Shown in pieces: positions 13,502-52,716 of a stretch of DNA of 64,000 bases. The notes beneath the pieces are model-generated. The model saw only the letters and a list, made by a program, of their open reading frames with translations, was not told the DNA's origin and made no database searches. This DNA comes from Conexibacter sp. CPCC 205762 (GTDB taxonomy: Bacteria; Actinomycetota; Thermoleophilia; Solirubrobacterales; Solirubrobacteraceae): positions 1 to 64,000 of the forward strand of contig NZ_JAUTDN010000027.1 of NCBI RefSeq assembly GCF_030646155.1, given 5' to 3'. Each line of letters starts with the position of its first letter. The stretch's first letter is position 1. The position numbers and the translations under genes were made by a program.

Positions 13502-14311
13502 ATGCTGTCCGTGCATACCGTACAGCCGAGCAACATCCGCGTCCGCCGCGTCGGCGGCGTCGAGCAGATCGAGCTGCACCGGCCCGAGGCGCTGAACGCC
13601 TGGACCCCCGAGATGGGCCGCGAGCTGCTCGCCGCCCTGCGCGCCGCGAGCGCCGACGACGACGTCCGCGCGGTGCTGATCACGGGAGCCGGGCGCGCCT
13701 TCTGCGCCGGCGCCGACGTGAAGGTCCCGCGTGAGCTGGAGCCCGACGGATCGCCCGACCTGCACTCCCGCCTGGAGCAGATCTACAACCCGATCGTGCT
13801 GGAGCTGCGGCGCATGCCCAAGCCAGCCGTCGCCGCCGTCCACGGCGCCGCCGCCGGCCTCGGCTGCTCGCTGGCGCTCGCCTGCGACCTCGTCGTCGCC
13901 GCCGAGTCGGCGACCTTCCTGCTGGCCTTCGTCCACATCGCCGTGATGCCAGACGGCGGCGCCCTCCCCCACCTCGTCGCCCGCATCGGCCCCGCCCGCA
14001 CCGCGCAGCTGGCGATGCTCGGCGAGAAGCTGCCAGCCGCAACCGCGCGCGGGTGGGGCATCGTCAACGAGCTGGTCGCCGACGACGCCCTGCCCGCCGC
14101 CGGCGAAGCACTCGCCACGCGCCTCGCCGCGATGCCGACGACGGCGATCGCGTCGATGAAGGAGATCATCAACGCCTCGCTCGGCGCCGAGCTGGAGCCC
14201 CTGCTCGCGCGCGAGGCACAGGTCCAGCAGCGCCACGCCACGACCGCCGACTACGCCGAGGGCGTCGCCGCCTTCAGAGAGAAGCGGCGACCGCGGTTCG
14301 TCAGGGCGTGA
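13502..14311 (+). CDS. Enoyl-CoA hydratase/isomerase family protein (crotonase)
   Basis: A crotonase-fold protein of about 269 aa. Motifs include IELHRPEALNAWTPEM, GRAFCAGADVKVP (first oxyanion segment) and AAVHGAAAGLGCSLALACD (second), ending in REKRRPRFVRA. It is transcribed away from the big catabolic run, sharing a 37-nt gap with an operator-like palindrome. ATG 13502 lies just after that palindrome. The upstream ATG at 13463 would place the operator inside the gene and is rejected. No good ribosome site precedes 13502, so the message may be leaderless or start at the GTG at 13511. Downstream it abuts the accessory island. Confidence 0.88.
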   Translation: MLSVHTVQPSNIRVRRVGGVEQIELHRPEALNAWTPEMGRELLAALRAASADDDVRAVLITGAGRAFCAGADVKVPRELEPDGSPDLHSRLEQIYNPIVLELRRMPKPAVAAVHGAAAGLGCSLALACDLVVAAESATFLLAFVHIAVMPDGGALPHLVARIGPARTAQLAMLGEKLPAATARGWGIVNELVADDALPAAGEALATRLAAMPTTAIASMKEIINASLGAELEPLLAREAQVQQRHATTADYAEGVAAFREKRRPRFVRA

Positions 14312-14524
14312 GCGCGGCAAAAGGGCCGATCGCAAGACTCGCCAGGCAGAAGACCTGAGCCGCGAAGATCCCGGCGCAGCGGCGAACGACACGACCTCAC
14401 CTGCTCGCCTCCGAGGCGAATACTACAGCCGGTCTGGAACGAAAAAGCGGGCCGAATGAGCACCGACTCCAAGGACGCCTAGCTTTCCAGCAGTTCCAGC
14501 CAGTATCCCTGGTACGTTTTCGGT

Positions 14525-15664
14525 GTGTCAGCCACGAGAGTTTCCAATCCAGAGCTTCTGGAGCCCGGCGAGGCGGTCCTTGTCGATGTCCTTCGGATGA
14601 TTCTGCGGGATCGGGCAGACGAGGTACCTGCCCGCGTCCGCAAGCTCGTCACGACACAAGCGGGTCGACGCAGGGCGCGTCTCAGCGAGTCGGGACGTGC
14701 TGCGATCGCGTTGCTGTTCGCCGAAGAGGCCGCGCGACCAAGCAGAACGGAGGACCGACGAGCGTCCCCGCGGAGCGTTGTCACGCCCCCAGTCGCCGAG
14801 AGCAGCGAGGACGCGCCGGCCCCCGTGCTCGCGGCCGACGACCGTCGGGTCATCGACGACATCGTGCACGAGTACCGTCAGCGGGACCGGCTCATCGCAT
14901 CTGGTCTGCATCCAACGCGAACTCTCCTGCTCTCGGGCCCGCCCGGGGTTGGCAAGTCGATGACGATGCAGTCGCTCGCGGCGCGGGTCGGCCGGCCACT
15001 GATCCGGGTTGAGCCCACCGACGTCATCGGGAGCCTGCTGGGCGAAAGCGCGCGCAGCCTCAGTTCGCTCTTCGCAGAGGCTCGCCACCAGGGGGCCGTG
15101 CTCGGTCTCGACGAGATCGATGCGCTGGCCAAGCGTCGCGATGACGCCTACGACGTGGGCGAGTTCAAGCGCTTCGTCACGACACTCCTCGTGGAACTCG
15201 ACCGCTGGCCCGGGGACGCACCGCTGATCGCCGCAACGAACCACCTTGACCTCCTCGATCCAGCCCTTGAGCGCCGCTTCGAGGTCCACCTTCGGCTCGG
15301 CTTCCCGGACAAGCCAGCACGCGCAGCGATTCTTCAGCAGGTGTTCTCAGACCTGACGCTCGCACCGTCGCCCGAGACGGTCGCGGCGCTCGTCGCAGTT
15401 ACTACCGGAACCACGGGCGCCAGCCTGACCGCGCTCGTTCATCGTGCCGCGCGCCGGGCCGTACTCGACGACGAACCACTTGACCGCGCGCTGCTGCTCG
15501 CCGCCGCGCCGCGCGACACCCCGTCCGACCGCCGTGCTCGCGAACAGTTCGCTGCCGTCGCTCGTGACACAGCGGGCCTGTCCAGCCGGATAATCGGTGA
15601 GCTGCTGGGTTGCTCGCACACCGCCGCCCAACGTCTCGCCCAAGCTGGCGCTGCCGACGCGTAA
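14525..15664 (+). CDS. AAA+ ATPase of a three-gene ATPase/subtilase/nuclease island
   Basis: A protein of about 379 aa. After an N-terminal helical region (1-100) comes an AAA+ module. It has Walker A GPPGVGKS at 138-145, Walker B LGLDEIDA at 193-200, sensor 1 at ATNH (N239) and Arg-finger candidates in PALERRFE (R250/R251). The C-terminus (LSSRIIGELLGCSHTAAQRL) resembles a helix-turn-helix. It probably remodels or unfolds a protein and feeds or controls the protease encoded 12 nt downstream. The start is a GTG with a weak ribosome site, so it is uncertain by some codons. Codon use is less GC-biased than in the flanking catabolic genes, suggesting transfer. Confidence 0.88.
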   Translation: MSATRVSNPELLEPGEAVLVDVLRMILRDRADEVPARVRKLVTTQAGRRRARLSESGRAAIALLFAEEAARPSRTEDRRASPRSVVTPPVAESSEDAPAPVLAADDRRVIDDIVHEYRQRDRLIASGLHPTRTLLLSGPPGVGKSMTMQSLAARVGRPLIRVEPTDVIGSLLGESARSLSSLFAEARHQGAVLGLDEIDALAKRRDDAYDVGEFKRFVTTLLVELDRWPGDAPLIAATNHLDLLDPALERRFEVHLRLGFPDKPARAAILQQVFSDLTLAPSPETVAALVAVTTGTTGASLTALVHRAARRAVLDDEPLDRALLLAAAPRDTPSDRRAREQFAAVARDTAGLSSRIIGELLGCSHTAAQRLAQAGAADA

Positions 15665-15676
15665 CGGAGCAAATTC

Positions 15677-18025
15677 ATGGCGACCAGCGACACCAACTCC
15701 GCTCGTCCGATCCTCAGCGCTGACTCCTCCTTCGGCGACGAGCAGACCAGGGCGCAGGGACACGGGCCGAAGTACCACCCTTACACCTACGCCGAGGTGC
15801 GTTCCCGCCTCGCGGGTCAGGTGCAGCACATCCGCAGCAACGTCGCGACGCTCCCCGACGAGTACCGCGGCGACCGCATCGTCGTACAGGCCAAACTGCA
15901 TCCCAACTACCTTGCGGCGACGCACCATCCGCGCGTCTTGCGCGAGGACGCCGACTTGGTCATGGTCGGGACACGCGCCTCTCGCGGCACGCTGCGCAAG
16001 CGCAGCGGCCCGGACCAAGAGGACATGCCGACCAAAACGCTTCTGCTCGCAGCCACCACCGCGTCTCTGGACCGCATGGGGCAACTTCTGACCAGCACGG
16101 CGCCGCCGGAGACGATCGCAGACGAGTTCGTGCGCTTCGAGAGCATCCTCCTGCCGGGACCTGAACGGATCGAGCGGCTTCACGTCGACGACGAGGACCC
16201 CGATGAAGCGTTGGTTTGGGAAGCGGTCCTGCATCCCGCCATCGACGTCAATGGACTGCCTTCGACCGCCGCTGCCGAACGGATCACGACTAAGCTCGAG
16301 ACGCTCGTCGAACGCCTCGACGGCGAGATGCGCCGTAAGTACCTGCGTCGCGTGGGGACCCTGACGTTCGTCCCGATCCGTCTTCCGCGTCGCGGCCTCA
16401 ACGACCTCGAACGCTTCAACCCGCTGCGCGCGGTGCGTCCGATGCCGCAGATGCGTCGCATTCCCGAAAAGCGCATCCGCAGTGCCGATCTTGGAGGAGC
16501 GGCCCCCGAGCCACCCAGCGCACGGCCACCGCGAGAACACCGCATCGCGGTGTTCGACGGGGGCGTCGATGCCACCCATCCGCTGCTCGCACCGTTCGTC
16601 AGCGAGGGCGATCTGACAAGCGCTCCGCGCGTCGAGCAGTTCGTCGCACATGGGACGCTCGTCTCGAGTGCCCTGCTTTACGGTCACATCCAGCCCGGCC
16701 GTCCGCTGCCAACCCCGCCAGCATACGTCGATCATTTCCGGGTCCTGCCGGCGCCCGCCGAGGTCGATCCCGCAGACGAGCCGTACTGGATCCTCGACCA
16801 GATCGTGGACGTTCTGCGCGACAAGCCTGTGCGCTGGCCGATCGTCAACCTGAGCCTCGGACCGGACGATTCGGCGATCGACGAGGATGCCGACATCAAC
16901 CGCTTCACCGCCGAGCTCGACCAGCTCATCGCGGACCTCGGCCTGACCGTTACAGTCGCCGTCGGGAACGAGGGCCAGCCGACGATCTCCTCCCTCGGCG
17001 AGGACCGTGTCATGGCCCCCGCCGATGGCGTCAACGTCCTTGCCGTCGGCGCGTGCGACGACCTGGCGCCTGACGAGCCCACCCGAGCGCCATACTCCTG
17101 CGTCGGACCTGGACGCCCTGGCCTGCGCGTCTCGCCCCTTGGGGTCGCCTTCGGAGGCAGCGACGCGCAGCACTTCATCGGCGCCGACGTCGGTGGCGGC
17201 TACCAAGTCAACATGGGCACGAGCTTCGCCGCGCCAACCGCTGCGCGCGGGATCGCGACTCTGTTGGCACCTGTTCCGTTCTCGGCCAACCTCGCACGCG
17301 GCATGGCGGCGCACTTCGCCACAGCGCCCAAGAAGCACGACCTCCCCACTATTGGCTACGGCCGTCTCCGCGACGACTACCGACACCTGCTCGACTGCGC
17401 ACCCGGGACCGTGACCGTCGTCGTACGGGACACCATCGAGCGCGGGATGACGCGCGCTTACCCAATGCCCTACCCCTTCTCCGGCCTCTCCGGTCGCGTG
17501 AAGGCTCGCTGGACCGTCTCTTTCATCTCACCGACCGATCCGCAGGACGCCGTCGAGTACACCCAGGCCGGCCTGGAGGTGGTCATGCGCCCTAACGCGA
17601 CCGCCTACACGATGAGCCTCAAGAACAGCGGCAAGAAGCCCATCGACGTCGACCTCCGCACAGATGGCAAGCTGATCCAGACTCTCGCTAGTCAGGGCTG
17701 GGCTCTTAGCCTGAACCCAAAGACCCGGTCCGGCAAGGCCGTGCGCAGCGAACACACACTGCGCGACGAGGGCAAGTGGGAAACCGTGATGCGCCACGAA
17801 GACGGCGCGAACGCCGACAAGCTGCATCTGCCGTCGATCTGGGTCACCTACTACGAGCGGGCCGAGGGCCAGCTGATCCCCAAGGCCACCGCGACATCGC
17901 TGGACTTCACGCTCGTCATGACGATCGAAAGCAAGAAGACGCTCGACCTCTACGAACAGGTACGCGCCGACGCGCGGTTCGCGGTTCTCACCCCACTCAC
18001 CGCGCCGATCCACGCGGGCACGTAG
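15677..18025 (+). CDS. Subtilisin-like serine protease (S8), predicted cytoplasmic
   Basis: A 782-aa protein. The catalytic triad is visible: Asp294 in IAVFDGGVDATHP (DGG rather than the usual D-S/T-G), His325 in VAHGTLVSSALL and Ser516 in NMGTSFAAPTAARG. The oxyanion Asn431 is in VAVGNEGQP. The first 285 residues form an uncharacterised domain and the last 240 or so a beta-rich region. There is no signal peptide, so it should act inside the cell, presumably regulated by the AAA+ protein. The ATG at 15677 has GGAG upstream; the next gene starts 5 nt after its stop. A role in proteolytic activation or self-killing is inference. Confidence 0.9.
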   Translation: MATSDTNSARPILSADSSFGDEQTRAQGHGPKYHPYTYAEVRSRLAGQVQHIRSNVATLPDEYRGDRIVVQAKLHPNYLAATHHPRVLREDADLVMVGTRASRGTLRKRSGPDQEDMPTKTLLLAATTASLDRMGQLLTSTAPPETIADEFVRFESILLPGPERIERLHVDDEDPDEALVWEAVLHPAIDVNGLPSTAAAERITTKLETLVERLDGEMRRKYLRRVGTLTFVPIRLPRRGLNDLERFNPLRAVRPMPQMRRIPEKRIRSADLGGAAPEPPSARPPREHRIAVFDGGVDATHPLLAPFVSEGDLTSAPRVEQFVAHGTLVSSALLYGHIQPGRPLPTPPAYVDHFRVLPAPAEVDPADEPYWILDQIVDVLRDKPVRWPIVNLSLGPDDSAIDEDADINRFTAELDQLIADLGLTVTVAVGNEGQPTISSLGEDRVMAPADGVNVLAVGACDDLAPDEPTRAPYSCVGPGRPGLRVSPLGVAFGGSDAQHFIGADVGGGYQVNMGTSFAAPTAARGIATLLAPVPFSANLARGMAAHFATAPKKHDLPTIGYGRLRDDYRHLLDCAPGTVTVVVRDTIERGMTRAYPMPYPFSGLSGRVKARWTVSFISPTDPQDAVEYTQAGLEVVMRPNATAYTMSLKNSGKKPIDVDLRTDGKLIQTLASQGWALSLNPKTRSGKAVRSEHTLRDEGKWETVMRHEDGANADKLHLPSIWVTYYERAEGQLIPKATATSLDFTLVMTIESKKTLDLYEQVRADARFAVLTPLTAPIHAGT

Positions 18026-18030
18026 ACAAC

Positions 18031-19227
18031 GTGGACCTCGCCGCTGCGCTGCTCCAGTTCGACCGCGCGGACACCAACCTCGCTCGCGCCGAAGCCTGCT
18101 GGAACGAGATGCGCGCCCTCATCCCCGAGGAGATCACGTTCATCTCCGGCAGCGACGACGCCGCGAGGTACAACGAACTGGCACGCGACCTCAGAGAGCT
18201 CGTCAAGGGACTGCCGGCGATCCACGGCGAAGTCCTCAGCATCGAGATCCCCGATCCCGACGATGTCGCGCAGAGTCGTCTCGACGCGCACGAGATCGGC
18301 GAGATCTCCATCGTGATCGACGTCGAGCGATCGTTGGCAGCACCCGGCGACGCCCTGGCGGGGTACCGACATCTGCTCGACCGGACCCGCCGACACATGG
18401 TGCGAAGCCCTGCTGGCGAGCTGTTCAAGCAGGTCGACGAACGCCTCGTCAAGCTGGCGGAACGGGTACCACGAGACGGAACGTCGCTCGCTGACGACAC
18501 CGAGTGGCGCCAGGTAGTCGAGACGATCACCGAGGCCGAGCGACTGGTTGGCAGCTCGGTCAAGCGCAACGGCCGATGGGGCGACCTTCGACGCCACATC
18601 GGGTTCGCACAGGCGGTAGATCTCCATGACATCGCCGAGAACGACTGGCCGTCGGTCCGGGCCGACCTGAAACAGGCTTTGTACGCCGAACGCGAACCCA
18701 TCGAGATCGATGTCGCAGACCTCGGGGCGCTTGCCAACGAGCAGCCGCAGGGACGTGTCTCGTCCGCATTGGCCTGGGACGCACTCGGCGACGACGAAGA
18801 CTTCGAGCGACTGGTGTTCTCGCTCATCAGCGCGTCAGACGGATACGAGAATTCAACGTGGTTGACCAAGACCAACGCTCCCGATCGCTCACGAGATCTC
18901 TCGGTCGACCGCGTCATTCGCGATCCGCTCGCCGGCACGATTCGGCAGCGAGTGATCATCCAATGCAAGCACTGGCGAGCGAAATCGGTCGCGGTTCCCG
19001 ACGTTGCCGCAACGCAAGCCGCAATGACGCTCTGGGAGCCGCCTGCCGTCGATGTCCTCGTGATCGCCACGACAGGTCGGTTCACCTCGGATGCCGTCGC
19101 CTGGATCGAGAAGCACAACCACGAAGGCAAGCGACCACGCATCGAGATGTGGGCCGACAGTCATCTCGAACTCCTGCTCGCGCAGCGGCCAGCACTCGTG
19201 AGCGAGTTCGGACTGCGGCCCAGCTAG
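18031..19227 (+). CDS. Mrr-like PD-(D/E)XK restriction endonuclease-family protein
   Basis: A 398-aa protein. Residues 1 to about 250 are helical and unrecognised. From DFERLVFSLISASDGYEN onward it follows the Mrr/restriction-endonuclease-like fold. A candidate metal-binding Asp289 is in RSRDLSVD, and QCK at 311-313 in RVIIQCKHWRAKS replaces the E-x-K motif, as Mrr proteins commonly do. VDVLVIATTGRFTSDAVAWI follows. It would cleave DNA, perhaps modified or foreign DNA. The GTG start is 5 nt after the protease stop, so the three genes form one operon. The long N-terminal half could be a regulatory domain or the protease target; that is speculation. Confidence 0.78.
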   Translation: MDLAAALLQFDRADTNLARAEACWNEMRALIPEEITFISGSDDAARYNELARDLRELVKGLPAIHGEVLSIEIPDPDDVAQSRLDAHEIGEISIVIDVERSLAAPGDALAGYRHLLDRTRRHMVRSPAGELFKQVDERLVKLAERVPRDGTSLADDTEWRQVVETITEAERLVGSSVKRNGRWGDLRRHIGFAQAVDLHDIAENDWPSVRADLKQALYAEREPIEIDVADLGALANEQPQGRVSSALAWDALGDDEDFERLVFSLISASDGYENSTWLTKTNAPDRSRDLSVDRVIRDPLAGTIRQRVIIQCKHWRAKSVAVPDVAATQAAMTLWEPPAVDVLVIATTGRFTSDAVAWIEKHNHEGKRPRIEMWADSHLELLLAQRPALVSEFGLRPS

Positions 19228-19349
19228 TCGCCGACGAGATCTTCGGCGCCGAAGATCTACCGCGAGGTCACACCACGCCGTGCGATCCCCGGAGCCGGGC
19301 TTGCCAACTTCTTCAGCAGCCCATTCGCGGATTCGCGCGACTTGACGCC

Positions 19350-46984: not shown

Positions 46985-49900
46985 TCAGGCGCGCGCGGCG
47001 GTCAGCGCTCTGCGCGACTCGGCGGTGCGGTTGGGGTTCAGGTCCAGCTCGATCGCGATCGGCAGGCCGGCCGCGATCAGCGCCGCCTCCTGCTCGGGCG
47101 CGGCGTTCCAGCGCAGCTTGCGGCCGCCGTTCTCGACGACCAGCAGGCCGGGCTGCTCCAGCGCGCGGGCGACCGTCTCGCCCGCGTCCGGGATCCGCGC
47201 CAGGTCGGCGCTGACGTACGCCGCCGCCGGCAGGTTGCCGCCCGGCAGCGGGGTCGCTCGCGTGCGCGGCAGCTCGCCGTCGAAGGCGACGCCGTTGAAC
47301 GTCAGCATGAACGCCTTCGCCGCTCTCGGCAGCCCCGCGCGGGCGGTCGCGACCAGCGGCAGCGTCACCGTCACCTCGTTGCGAGCCGGGTCGAGGATCG
47401 CCCCGGCCGGGATCGCGCCGCCCTTCGCGGGCGCGAACACGGTCCGTCTGACGGCGGCGCCGGCGCTCGCGCGCGTCTCGAACGCGATCCGCTCGGCGCG
47501 CGCGACGTGGACGCGATCGTCGGCACCGGCCTGCGGCGCCGTCTCGGTCGCCGGCGCCGGGCTGGAACGCCAGGCGTCGGAGCCCCAGCTGACCGGGATG
47601 CCGATGAACGAGCCCTCGAACTTGCCGTTGCCGGGGTTGAAGTTGACGTTGACGCCGTCAGCGCACTTCTTCCACCACAGCATCGAGACGCAGCCGCCGG
47701 CGCGCGCCGAGCCGTTGCGGACCCAGAAGTTGAGCCCGTTCAGCCCGACCCGCAGCGACGAGCGCAGCTCGCCCTGCATGTAGACGGAGGCGACGTAGAC
47801 GCCGACCTCGCTGCGCGGGACGACGAAGTCGAAGTCCCACTGCTGCGGCAGCGACAGATTCAGCGTCTTGTCGTAGGAGAGCGGGCCGAGGCGCATCGCG
47901 CTGCACAGCCGCAGCATCAGCTCCTTGCCGCCTCTCTCCTCCGCCAGGCGCGAGATCGAGCAGTCGTTCGGGTTGCCGTCGAGCCGCACGCCGTCGGGCG
48001 CGTAGGCGAACAGCGCGCCGGCGCGCATCCCCAGCGGGCCGACCGTCGCGCTGTACTGGAACGCGCCCGCGGCGGTCTTGACCGAGCCGTCGCCGTAGGA
48101 CAGCAGCAGGCCGGCCTCGGCGCCCATGATGCGCGTGCGCGCGTCGACCTGGGCGCTGCGCGCCGTCCACGAGCCCTTCTCCTTCGCGAACTCGAGCTTC
48201 GCGAGGACGGCGCCCTCGGCGAAGGTCGTGCCGGCGAAGCGCAGTCTGCCGCTGCCTCTCAGGGCCGCGCTGATCGCGTTGTCGTTGGCGTTGAAGCGGC
48301 CCTCGACGTCGATCGTCGACTCGCCCGCGTCGAGGCCGCCGGAGAAGGCGACGTCGATGTGGCGGTTGGCGCCGCCGGTGTCGATGTCGAGGTCGAGCGC
48401 GGTGCGGCGGAAGGAGACCGGGCCGGCGTCGAAGGCGCCGACGCGGACCGTTCCTCTGACCGCGAAGTCGGCCGTGCCGTGCTTGCGCATCGCGGCCGCG
48501 AAGGTGACCGGCGTCGGGCCGACCTGGCCGTCGAAGCCGAGCGCGAAGCCCGGGTCGATCTTGTAGCCGGGCTTGCCCGGCGCCGGGTTGCCGATCGTGC
48601 AGCCGGTCGGGGCGACGACGATCTGCGCCCAGTTGGCCGCCAGCGGCCCCAGCTTCAGGATCGGCTGCGGGTTGCCGGGGCCGCCGAGCACGGCCGGCAG
48701 CTGGCCGACCTCCAGCTCCAGGCAGGCGTTCGTCTGCGAGACGCTGAAGGCGACCTTCGCGGGCGTCCGCTTGGGCATCCCGAGCGAGTCGCTCCAGCCG
48801 TCGGGCAGCGTCGCGTCGGCGGCGATGCCGAAGCTCGTGTCGACGCCGACCGAGGCCGACACCAGCAGTCTGTGGACGTCGAGCCCCTGCTGGCCGAAGG
48901 CGTTCTCGACCGTGCCGTTCTTCAGCGCCGGGTCGCTGACGTCGACGCCGGCGCTGAGGCTGACGCTCGGCGCGCCCAGCTCGACGCCGGCCGCGACGAA
49001 CAGCGGCGTGCGCGAGGCGGCGACGCCTCTGTCGGCGTTCGCCGGCGTCTCCAGCGCGCCCTTGGCGGCCATCTCCAGCCGCAGGCTCGTGCCGGCGCTG
49101 TAGTCGAACGACAGTTCGACGGCGGTGAGCCCCAGGCGCGTGTCCTCGGGCCGCTCGCCGATCAGGTTGACCGGTCTCGCGAAGCTGAACAGCGCCGCGC
49201 CGGAGAGGCCGTAGCCGCCGTCGCCGCGGGTCAGCGCGAGCGACAGGTCGGCCTTGCCGCCGAGGACTCTGCCGACGCCCTCCGGCAGGCGATCCTCCGG
49301 CAGGTTCAGCACGCCGGAGAGGCGCACGTCGCCGGCGCCCAGTCTGATCGTCTTGCCGGCGACGACGACGTCGGCCGCCTTCGAGGCGTAGGCGAAGCGG
49401 ACCTGGTCGACGAGCGGCGCTCTGCCCTCGCCGGCCGGCAGGCCGTCGGGCGTGAAGCTGCCGAACGAGCCGGTGATGCAGTAGCCGGAGCGGGCGAACT
49501 CGCCGTCGGCCGTGAACGGCTCGCCGAGCAGCCTGCCGCGGGCGCTGACGCCGAACGACAGCTCCTGGTCGGACTCCAGCGTGGCGGGCGCGTCCTCTGC
49601 AGGCGCGGGCGCGTCGTCGGCGGCGCTCTCGGCGGCGCCGGCCGGCTTGCACCACTGCGGGCCGTCGGTCGTCAGCGTGAGGCGGACGTCGGTCAGGCGC
49701 AGGTCGTCGGGGCCGAAGCCGGCGAGCTGCGCGCCGCCCTCGAATCTGACCGCGAAGGTCGACAGGTTGACGGCGGCGATGCCGTACCACGGCACGACCT
49801 GGCCGGCGACGTGCGCGTCGCCCGTCACCTCCATTGCGAGCCGCACCTGTCTGGTGCTGCAGCCGGTCTCCTCGCTCGTGCAGGCGTTCGTGATCGCGCC

Positions 49901-52675
49901 GCGCACGGTCACGTTCTTGAGCTGGTCCGACGGGCTCCAGCCGTGGACCGCGCCGACGACGCTGACCTGGAAGGTGTCGTGGTCGTCCTCGCCGGGGGCG
50001 CGCTCGAGGCTGCCCTCGACCTCGTCGAGCGTGACGCCGTCGCCGAGGCCGAACGGTCTCGTCTGCGCGATCGTCAGCTTCCACTGCGAGGTCGAGACGT
50101 ACTCGCCTCTGGCGATCGCCTCGAAGTCGTCGCGCGAGGTGCTCACGCGCACGCCGGAGGAGACGGCGATGCCGTCGGCGTCCCAGCGCGCCGTCACGTC
50201 GCTGACGGAGACGTTCGAGGTCAGCGCCAGCTCGCCCTCAGCTCTCAGCGTCAGCGAGCCGGTCAGCGTGCCGTCGCCACCACTCGGGAAGTGGGCGGCT
50301 CTGGCGCGCGGGCCGCTGCCGACGCGGGCGCTGAACGCTCTGGCGTCGTCGGCGGGCGTCTCGTCGTCGCCGTCGGATCTGGCGTCGTCGCTGGCGGCGC
50401 TCGGGTCGGTCGTGAGCGTGCCGACGCCGGAGAGCGCGACCGTGCGGTCGTCGACGCCGTGCAGCACGACGAGGCGGTCGGCGGCGACGCTGACGCTGGT
50501 CGTGCCGTCGAGCGCGATGCTGCCGTCGAGCGTGACGCGGCCGTTCTCGCCGGCCGCCGCCTGCGCGACGGATCTGAGCGTGAAGCGCTGCTCGGCCGGA
50601 ACGTAGGCGAGCGTGCTCTGGCCTCTCGGGAAGGTCCAGCCCTCCGGCAGCGGCAGCAGCTCGACGCCGTCGTCGAGCGCGATCTGCGCCCGCAGCGCGC
50701 CCCAGGCGCCTCTCGCGTCGAGCGGCGCGGCGAACGAGCCGGCGCTCGGGGGCGTGATCCTCAGCCGCGGCGGCAGGTCGCTCCACCAGCCGTCGGGCAG
50801 GTCGAGCCAGCCGGAGCTGAAGACGATCCCGTCGTCGCCGACGCTGCCGGCGACGTCCTCGAAGACGAGCCCGCCGAGGCGGACGGTCGCGGTCTGGAAC
50901 TCGACGCGGGCGGCGTCGGACGTGCAGTCGTCGGCGGTGGTCGACGCGTGGCCGAGCGTGACGCGCGCGCCGTCGGCGGTGACGATCGGCGCGGCGTCGG
51001 TGCCGGCGCTCGTGTCGCCGCGCTGGGCGGCGCCCCAGAGCGTGCAGAAGGTGCCGCCGTCGGTCGGCGTGTCGACCGCACCGCTGCCGCCGAGCAGGCC
51101 GCGGCGGGCGAGGTTGCGGGCCGGCCGCAGCGGGCCGGCGACGTGGATCGTCGCGCGCTGACGGACGCGCTTGCCGGCGACGACGGCGCCCGCCTCGACG
51201 ACGAACGTGCGCCGGCCGCGCGGGATCGTGAAGGTGATCTCGCGCTTGCTGACGCTGCTGCCGCGCAGCAGCGTGCGCGGGCCCTTGGCGACGCGCCAGC
51301 GGACGCGCGTCAGCTCGCCGCCCTGCGGGTCGACGTGCAGCTTCACGCGCTGGCCGACGCGCGGCCCGGCGAGCGCCGAGCCGCTGACGTGGAGGCCGCG
51401 GGTGAGCCGCTTTCTGGCGTTGTAGAGGCGGACCTTCGCCTCGCCGCGCTCGACCACTCTCAGCTTGCGCGCGGGCGCGGCGAGCTTCGCGGCGCGACGC
51501 GGCAGGACGGTGACGGTCGTGACCGCGCGCGTCTCACCGCGCCAGTCGCGCGCGACCAGCTCGAAGCGCAGTCTCGTCGCGTCGGCGACGGCCGGCACCT
51601 GCACCTGCGCGGTGACGACCGGCCCGGAGGCGCGGCCGCCGGTCGGCGTCTGCCACTGGACGCGGGGGCAGGCGTTCGCGGCGCTGCGGGCTCTGCCGCC
51701 TCTGCGCGTGCGGCCTCTGGCGTCAGCGCGGGTGCGGGCGGGCTCGCAGATCTGGCGCCAGCGGTAGTCGACCGGCAGCGCGCTGTCGTAGCGGCGCAGC
51801 TTCGCGCTCAGCACGAGCGGCGGCGCGTCGACGCCCGTGCCGGCGCCGAGCAGCTTCCGCTGGGTCGCCGCGAAGCTGATCGCGAGCGGCTGGCGGACAC
51901 GGAAGCGCTCCGTCGCGGTCGCGGTGCGGGGGCGGGCGGCGGCTCTGCGGGCGGCGGCGGACGCGGCGGGCGTCGTCGCTCTCGCGGCCGGCTTGGCGGC
52001 GCCCTCGCGCCAGCTCGCGCTGACGCGGACGGCGGCGCTGCCGGCGCGCCTGGCGACGAGGCCGACGCGGATCGCGGCGTGGCGGCCGGCGCTCGTCGCG
52101 GCCGGCGCGGCGCAGCGGACGAGGCGGCCGCTGGGCGTGCAGCTCCAGCCGGGCGCGCGCACGCCGCCAAAGCGGTAGGCGGACGGGATCCGCACGACCA
52201 CCCGCGCCGCGCGCACGCGCGTGGCGACGTCGGTCTGTCTGCTGAGCGAGATCGTCAGCGCGCCGCTGCCGCCCGCTCTCAGCGCGGTGTCGCCGACGAC
52301 GCCGAGGCCGAGCGCGCCGAGCAGGTCGGCGCGGCGGCGCGGCTGGTCGACCGCGGTCGCGTCGGTCTCCTGCTCGCTGAAGGCGTAGTCGCGCGAGACG
52401 TCGCCGAGCGGCGCGTAGCCGGAGGCGGTCGTGCTCGCCGGCAGCGCGAGCGCGACCGGCGCCAGCGCCGACGGCACCGCGACCGGCGCGATCCCGGTCG
52501 GGGTCAGCGCGATGGCGGCGGGCGCGGCGGCGGCAGCGGACGCGCCGGGCGCGGCGGCAGCCGAGGCGGCGGGCGCGGCTGCGGCGGCCGTCAGCGGCAG
52601 CAGCGCGGCGAGCGCGGCGGCGCGGCGGAGGCGGCCGCCCGACCGGGCAGGGCTGCGGCGGACGGCGGCGGACAT
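46985..52675 (-). CDS. Giant exported beta-rich protein of unknown function
   Basis: A protein of about 1,896 aa. It has an Arg-rich N-terminus and a long Ala-rich signal segment (ALAALLPLTAAAAAPAAS). After that it is mostly short beta-strand and turn segments with few helices, rich in Gly, Ser, Asp and Val. Stretches such as VSVAADRLVVLHGVDDRTVA recur with variation, so repeated beta-helix or beta-sandwich domains are likely. I recognise no catalytic motif. It probably works at the cell surface as an adhesin, envelope or matrix protein. ATG 52675 with an AAGGGA ribosome site was preferred to 52711. The 12-nt spacing to the SGNH gene suggests one operon. Confidence 0.7.
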   Translation of the reverse strand: MSAAVRRSPARSGGRLRRAAALAALLPLTAAAAAPAASAAAAPGASAAAAAPAAIALTPTGIAPVAVPSALAPVALALPASTTASGYAPLGDVSRDYAFSEQETDATAVDQPRRRADLLGALGLGVVGDTALRAGGSGALTISLSRQTDVATRVRAARVVVRIPSAYRFGGVRAPGWSCTPSGRLVRCAAPAATSAGRHAAIRVGLVARRAGSAAVRVSASWREGAAKPAARATTPAASAAARRAAARPRTATATERFRVRQPLAISFAATQRKLLGAGTGVDAPPLVLSAKLRRYDSALPVDYRWRQICEPARTRADARGRTRRGGRARSAANACPRVQWQTPTGGRASGPVVTAQVQVPAVADATRLRFELVARDWRGETRAVTTVTVLPRRAAKLAAPARKLRVVERGEAKVRLYNARKRLTRGLHVSGSALAGPRVGQRVKLHVDPQGGELTRVRWRVAKGPRTLLRGSSVSKREITFTIPRGRRTFVVEAGAVVAGKRVRQRATIHVAGPLRPARNLARRGLLGGSGAVDTPTDGGTFCTLWGAAQRGDTSAGTDAAPIVTADGARVTLGHASTTADDCTSDAARVEFQTATVRLGGLVFEDVAGSVGDDGIVFSSGWLDLPDGWWSDLPPRLRITPPSAGSFAAPLDARGAWGALRAQIALDDGVELLPLPEGWTFPRGQSTLAYVPAEQRFTLRSVAQAAAGENGRVTLDGSIALDGTTSVSVAADRLVVLHGVDDRTVALSGVGTLTTDPSAASDDARSDGDDETPADDARAFSARVGSGPRARAAHFPSGGDGTLTGSLTLRAEGELALTSNVSVSDVTARWDADGIAVSSGVRVSTSRDDFEAIARGEYVSTSQWKLTIAQTRPFGLGDGVTLDEVEGSLERAPGEDDHDTFQVSVVGAVHGWSPSDQLKNVTVRGAITNACTSEETGCSTRQVRLAMEVTGDAHVAGQVVPWYGIAAVNLSTFAVRFEGGAQLAGFGPDDLRLTDVRLTLTTDGPQWCKPAGAAESAADDAPAPAEDAPATLESDQELSFGVSARGRLLGEPFTADGEFARSGYCITGSFGSFTPDGLPAGEGRAPLVDQVRFAYASKAADVVVAGKTIRLGAGDVRLSGVLNLPEDRLPEGVGRVLGGKADLSLALTRGDGGYGLSGAALFSFARPVNLIGERPEDTRLGLTAVELSFDYSAGTSLRLEMAAKGALETPANADRGVAASRTPLFVAAGVELGAPSVSLSAGVDVSDPALKNGTVENAFGQQGLDVHRLLVSASVGVDTSFGIAADATLPDGWSDSLGMPKRTPAKVAFSVSQTNACLELEVGQLPAVLGGPGNPQPILKLGPLAANWAQIVVAPTGCTIGNPAPGKPGYKIDPGFALGFDGQVGPTPVTFAAAMRKHGTADFAVRGTVRVGAFDAGPVSFRRTALDLDIDTGGANRHIDVAFSGGLDAGESTIDVEGRFNANDNAISAALRGSGRLRFAGTTFAEGAVLAKLEFAKEKGSWTARSAQVDARTRIMGAEAGLLLSYGDGSVKTAAGAFQYSATVGPLGMRAGALFAYAPDGVRLDGNPNDCSISRLAEERGGKELMLRLCSAMRLGPLSYDKTLNLSLPQQWDFDFVVPRSEVGVYVASVYMQGELRSSLRVGLNGLNFWVRNGSARAGGCVSMLWWKKCADGVNVNFNPGNGKFEGSFIGIPVSWGSDAWRSSPAPATETAPQAGADDRVHVARAERIAFETRASAGAAVRRTVFAPAKGGAIPAGAILDPARNEVTVTLPLVATARAGLPRAAKAFMLTFNGVAFDGELPRTRATPLPGGNLPAAAYVSADLARIPDAGETVARALEQPGLLVVENGGRKLRWNAAPEQEAALIAAGLPIAIELDLNPNRTAESRRALTAARA

Positions 52676-52716
52676 GCGATCGATTCCCTTCGTCGACATC
52701 TGGTCTGACACCCTGC

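Follow-up and report, generated by a model that had tools for sequence, protein, structure and literature searches.

An IetAS-like ATPase–subtilase pair followed by an Mrr-type nuclease on a small accessory insert of a Conexibacter genome

Three tightly spaced genes in a 64,000-nt stretch of DNA from Conexibacter sp. CPCC 205762 (hereafter the window) encode an AAA+ ATPase, an intracellular subtilase and an Mrr-type nuclease. They raise the question of whether the three products act together as one anti-phage machine, as an original prediction made from the sequence had it, or whether a pair of a known kind and an independent nuclease have come to lie side by side. The features considered here are the following.

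14525-15664, + strand: IetA-type AAA+ ATPase gene (start GTG, 379 aa)
15677-18025, + strand: IetS-type intracellular S8 subtilase gene (start ATG, 782 aa)
18031-19227, + strand: Mrr-type PD-(D/E)XK nuclease gene of a stand-alone family (start GTG, 398 aa)
19237-19258, strand not applicable: perfect 22-nt palindrome, AGATCTTCGGCGCCGAAGATCT, directly 3' of the nuclease stop codon
about 14300-19345, strand not applicable: accessory insert of ~5.05 kb, delimited by blastn against relatives and by GC content

A three-gene insert between fatty-acid genes

As originally described, the three genes are co-directional, with 12 nt between the ATPase and subtilase genes and 5 nt between the subtilase and nuclease genes; each of the three ORFs is intact and full length, and every catalytic residue is in place. 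The tight spacing suggests that the three are co-transcribed, the nuclease gene probably lying in one transcription unit with IetA and IetS, and the palindrome, which has no T-run, is a possible transcript-end hairpin.

The boundaries of the insert, which the original prediction had missed, were defined by base composition and by comparison with relatives. The insert has a GC content of 66.3%, compared with 73.6-74.0% in the 5-kb flanks, and along the trio GC ranges from 65 to 69% in surroundings of 71-77%. On its two sides lie genes for fatty-acid metabolism, an enoyl-CoA hydratase and a 3-hydroxyacyl-CoA dehydrogenase. In the same-genus genome G450 (locus L113) these flanking genes are adjacent and blastn places window positions 14299 and 19346 only 38 nt apart; in G121 (locus L114), which represents another genus within the family, positions 14301 and 19365 lie 44 nt apart. 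Since both relatives carry an empty site, we conclude that the trio makes up an accessory insert some 5.05 kb long, whose gene content is exactly these three genes. Inspection of its ends and contents for signs of mobility revealed no integrase, and neither terminal nor target repeats exceeded chance-like matches. The insert seems to be a recent one, and the chromosomal genes around it are metabolic and form no defence island. Nothing speaks more strongly for a functional unit than such a common insert, and linkage was therefore examined both from the side of the pair and from that of the nuclease.

The ATPase–subtilase pair as a divergent IetAS

The ATPase matches Pfam AAA (PF00004, 9e-27) and, over residues 93-373, the PADLOC IetA profile (4.3e-58); it carries a Walker A motif, GPPGVGKS, at residues 138-145 (K144), where it had been predicted, and a Walker B motif at residues 192-199. 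The subtilase matches Pfam Peptidase_S8 (3e-17) and the PADLOC IetS profile (3.5e-39, residues 10-637). Its active site consists of the predicted triad D294, H325 and S516, invariant across 11 aligned relatives, together with the oxyanion residue N431, and a scan of its N-terminus for a hydrophobic segment found none, consistent with the proposed lack of a signal peptide. Profiles of our own, trained on plasmid pairs and on the window itself, match the two window proteins at 1.5e-116 (IetA) and 8.7e-251 (IetS).

In NCBIfam, which names both proteins as anti-phage, the ATPase scores 181.5 bits against IteA (NF042959, anti-phage ATPase) and the subtilase 88.6 bits against IteS (NF042956, anti-phage peptidase), below the curated equivalog cut-offs of 510 and 900 bits, respectively, so that neither is a member of its equivalog. 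The PADLOC and NCBIfam matches nevertheless span most of both proteins. Given strong NCBIfam E-values that stay under the equivalog cut-offs, we regard the pair as a divergent member of IetAS, which on sequence grounds is a kind of system that already has a name, missed in the original prediction, and not an undescribed one. Gene order, homology along both proteins, the Walker A and B motifs and the Asp-His-Ser triad all place it in IetAS in the broad sense. As both cut-offs are missed, an anti-phage activity of the divergent clade to which the window pair belongs is assumed from its relatives. IetAS was reportedly among the anti-phage systems presented by Gao and others in 2020.

Related pairs behave as toxin–antitoxin systems with a protease toxin and an ATPase antitoxin, namely SgiAT of Salmonella Genomic Island 1 (SGI1; PMC5006074) and TA132/3 of Mycoplasma mycoides (PMC8562856); both papers cite work from 2009 on IetAS of the Agrobacterium plasmid pTiC58, and IetAS relatives confer stability on pTiC58 and SGI1 (PMC5006074). 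The window pair shares with these systems, and with those behind the PADLOC IetA/IetS and NCBIfam IteA/IteS profiles, adjacent genes for an AAA+ protein and a cytoplasmic subtilase in the same order, with the same sizes, triad and Walker motifs. It differs in that its IetS is only 27-35% identical to the plasmid pairs compared, in its scores below the equivalog cut-offs, and in the nuclease gene that comes next. Genes for IetA and IetS neighbour one another in 86 of the 94 loci retrieved; many pairs are plasmid-borne, and others occur in phage and prophage-like contigs. In a tree of 93 IetS proteins, where several long branches leave the deeper placements unsure, the window IetS and that of G872, a genome of the same family, fall within a strongly supported group of eight outside the main body.

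The nuclease and its helical N-terminal domain

The third protein matches Pfam Mrr_cat (PF04471, 7.2e-12) with a score of 45.9 against a gathering cut-off of 21, and the PADLOC candidate PDC-M58A at 2.7e-8. Its catalytic residues are E259, D289 and Q311-C-K313, the last four positions agreeing with those given in the original prediction of an Mrr-type enzyme; an alignment of 40 nucleases shows no variation at E259, D289, Q311 or K313. Both the domain score and the E / D / QXK residues place it among the Mrr_cat restriction endonucleases. The 154-residue PDC-M58A profile matches the nuclease domain, as it does in 32 of 43 family members, but spans only the Mrr part, and a literature search on PDC-M58A found no paper.

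An AlphaFold2 model (pLDDT 89) predicts two domains, a helical N-terminal one (about residues 1-217) and a nuclease domain (about 250-395). In structural comparison, the modelled nuclease domain matches AspBHI (Z 13.0, 140 residues, 3.1 A), AF1548 (Z 12.5, 118 residues, 2.4 A), MspJI (Z 11.9, 141 residues, 3.4 A) and the Avs4 nuclease domain (Z 10.9, 138 residues, 3.2 A). Searching by sequence for solved structures related to the whole nuclease returned nothing meaningful. MspJI, AspBHI and E. coli Mrr have in common with the window protein an Mrr-cat PD-(D/E)XK domain with the (D)..QXK residues (PMC3874153). The likeness appears not to extend to the N-terminus. MspJI-type enzymes carry an SRA-like domain, which is beta-sheet based (PMC3874153), and a winged helix has been proposed for E. 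coli Mrr, whereas residues 1-217 of the window nuclease are predicted to be all-helical, formed of long helices, and are not SRA-like, which sets the enzyme outside the MspJI family; Pfam finds Mrr_cat families only. Avs4 (AVAST type 4) shares the nuclease fold but is a single large protein of ~1,500 aa, in contrast to the separate window nuclease of 398 aa, which has no ATPase part of its own.

Folded alone, the N-domain is again predicted to be all-helical (pLDDT 94.6). A fold search with it gave at best Z values of about 9, to four-helix sensor bundles, which is under the level of trust for helical models, and a search against viral models gave nothing. Strictly conserved residues within it are N16, P62, Y112, R120, W183, R188, H189, D197, D200, D205, W206 and P207, and these are common to nucleases that have no protease partner. 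For this reason we argue that the domain is part of the ordinary make-up of the enzyme, rather than an inhibitor that IetS releases, contrary to the proposal that the first 250 or so residues could be inhibitory.

Linkage, competing readings and the wider nuclease family

The closest pair found was that of G872, with 75% (IetA) and 79% (IetS) identity to the window proteins. G872 DNA matches the window over positions 14494-18015 only, that is, over the pair without the nuclease. The nuclease was likewise absent from all of ~95 further IetS loci, including six more pairs from genomes of the same order or phylum (IetS identity 31-41%), the plasmid pairs that were inspected and 72 loci with IetS on viral contigs. 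A shared third gene behind IetAS was also considered. A same-strand ORF follows within 60 nt in 22 of 91 assessable loci, but most of these ORFs appear unrelated or spurious, and none is the window nuclease. The pair of Mycolicibacterium crocinum has a co-directional third gene of its own (L084:8304-9275), whose 323-aa product has no Pfam match and is unrelated to the window nuclease. On Komagataeibacter and Agrobacterium plasmids, a small, similar protein is encoded closely after IetS (L092:8134-8500 and L094:8166-8516, with DUF3223 in L094), and a caspase-family gene lies a few genes upstream of IetA.

From the side of the nuclease, a scan of one genome per species (~85,000 species) gave 70 loci; plasmids gave eight records, six of them near full length, viral contigs gave one locus, and phage genomes gave none. 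A profile search of 74 loci with nuclease relatives detected IetA or IetS in none of them; in 56 the nuclease is near full length, and for 46 of these 56 the upstream sequence available for inspection is 3.9 kb or more. The profiles used recover pairs wherever pairs are known. Nor was IetS found anywhere in 50 nuclease-carrying genomes, with a query that detected IetS elsewhere at identities of 37% and 32%, that had no positive control among the 50 and that a very distant IetS would escape. A literature search for IetAS linked to a nuclease found no paper. The nuclease is thus unlinked to the pair in the related genomes searched, an outcome that the original prediction had itself named as a refutation.

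These data are best explained, with a probability of roughly three in four, by a divergent IetAS module followed by an independent Mrr-type restriction nuclease, both carried on one small accessory insert. By analogy with IetAS, SgiAT and the mycoplasma pair, IetA would normally hold IetS in check; infection, or loss of the element, may upset IetA, whereupon IetS would degrade cell proteins and bring about growth arrest, as in abortive infection or addiction. The fold of the nuclease and its solo occurrence point to an enzyme that would act alone and in a type IV-like manner, its C-terminal Mrr domain cutting foreign, perhaps modified, DNA while the helical N-domain may serve in recognition of DNA or of a partner, or in oligomerisation. 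The 5-nt gap after IetS and an insert of exactly three genes also fit a working three-gene unit. In such a unit, IetA and IetS would sense infection, and IetS would cut off an inhibitory N-domain of the nuclease or destroy its inhibitor. Gaps of 12 and 5 nt, one insert common to all three genes with nothing else inside and their similar GC (65-69%) agree with this, but the linkage is absent from every other genome, plasmid and viral contig searched, even from the pair 75-79% identical, and the N-domain is conserved where a protease partner is lacking; we therefore hold it to be very unlikely. The prediction of a conflict or anti-phage system stands for the pair, as IetAS, and is not supported for the specific trio. 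Activation or release of the nuclease by the ATPase and protease is likewise not borne out, given a G872 pair without the nuclease and no other linkage of IetAS and nuclease in either direction among the loci and genomes searched.

A narrower version, in which IetAS recently captured the nuclease in this lineage and IetS proteolysis upon infection would release or activate the Mrr domain, would so far concern a single genome and seems highly doubtful to us, as nothing beyond local gene order favours gating of the nuclease by IetS; were it true, it would constitute a protease-controlled, DNA-cutting defence. Somewhat less improbable, though still unlikely, is that IetAS serves as an addiction or stability module of the insert, with the nuclease as sole anti-phage cargo. 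The stabilisation of pTiC58 and SGI1 by IetAS relatives (PMC5006074), the many plasmid-borne pairs and the accessory nature of the insert speak for such a role, whereas the NCBIfam naming of both proteins as anti-phage and the presence of IetAS in phage and prophage-like contigs speak against it; addiction and anti-phage readings of IetAS are compatible and not exclusive. That the locus is a decayed relic, with at least one gene non-functional, might be entertained for an insert that is seemingly recent and sits among metabolic genes outside any defence island, but three intact, full-length ORFs with all catalytic residues kept make it very improbable. Under the preferred reading of an IetAS module with an independent nuclease behind it, the trio seems to be a local grouping of genes, and a known defence pair together with an independently travelling nuclease family takes the place of a new three-part machine.

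This nuclease family merits attention more than the trio does. Its members, of about 390 aa, show conservation from end to end in seven or more phyla, full-length relatives being 40-50% identical. They occur in Alpha-, Beta- and Gammaproteobacteria, Actinomycetota, Planctomycetota, Acidobacteria, Cyanobacteria, Verrucomicrobiota, Nitrospirota and others, where phyla beyond those in record titles are the ones to which we take the genera to belong. Most relatives are solo genes, and where a close same-strand gene lies upstream it varies from case to case, with AbiV (HEPN), Shedu SduA, a type ISP restriction-modification enzyme and an HNH nuclease among these neighbours. An apparently uncharacterised family that joins a helical domain to an Mrr domain and is found beside AbiV, Shedu and restriction-modification genes is a useful lead, and PADLOC already lists part of it as the candidate PDC-M58A.

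Several neighbourhoods recur. In rhizobial genomes and plasmids (L005, L007, L015, L025 and L026), a nuclease relative ends a same-strand run that includes an AbiV (HEPN) gene 13-47 nt upstream, and such a run may be a multi-gene defence locus in its own right; in Sinorhizobium medicae (L007:9104-10479), an opposite-strand ORF is inserted in the nuclease gene near residue 373, and the rest of the gene follows on its far side. In Nocardia ninae (L063:6775-9173), a Shedu SduA gene (profile match 8.7e-150) stops 8 nt ahead of the nuclease gene. In an actinobacterial group (L027-L030, L032, L039-L042 and L054), the nuclease gene is divergent to a gene for a large protein; the only one scanned, that of L041, is a TrwC relaxase/helicase, which suggests that these relatives are carried on conjugative elements. 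Elsewhere in the window, at positions 46985-52711, very long ORFs of 1908 and 1733 aa overlap on opposite strands.
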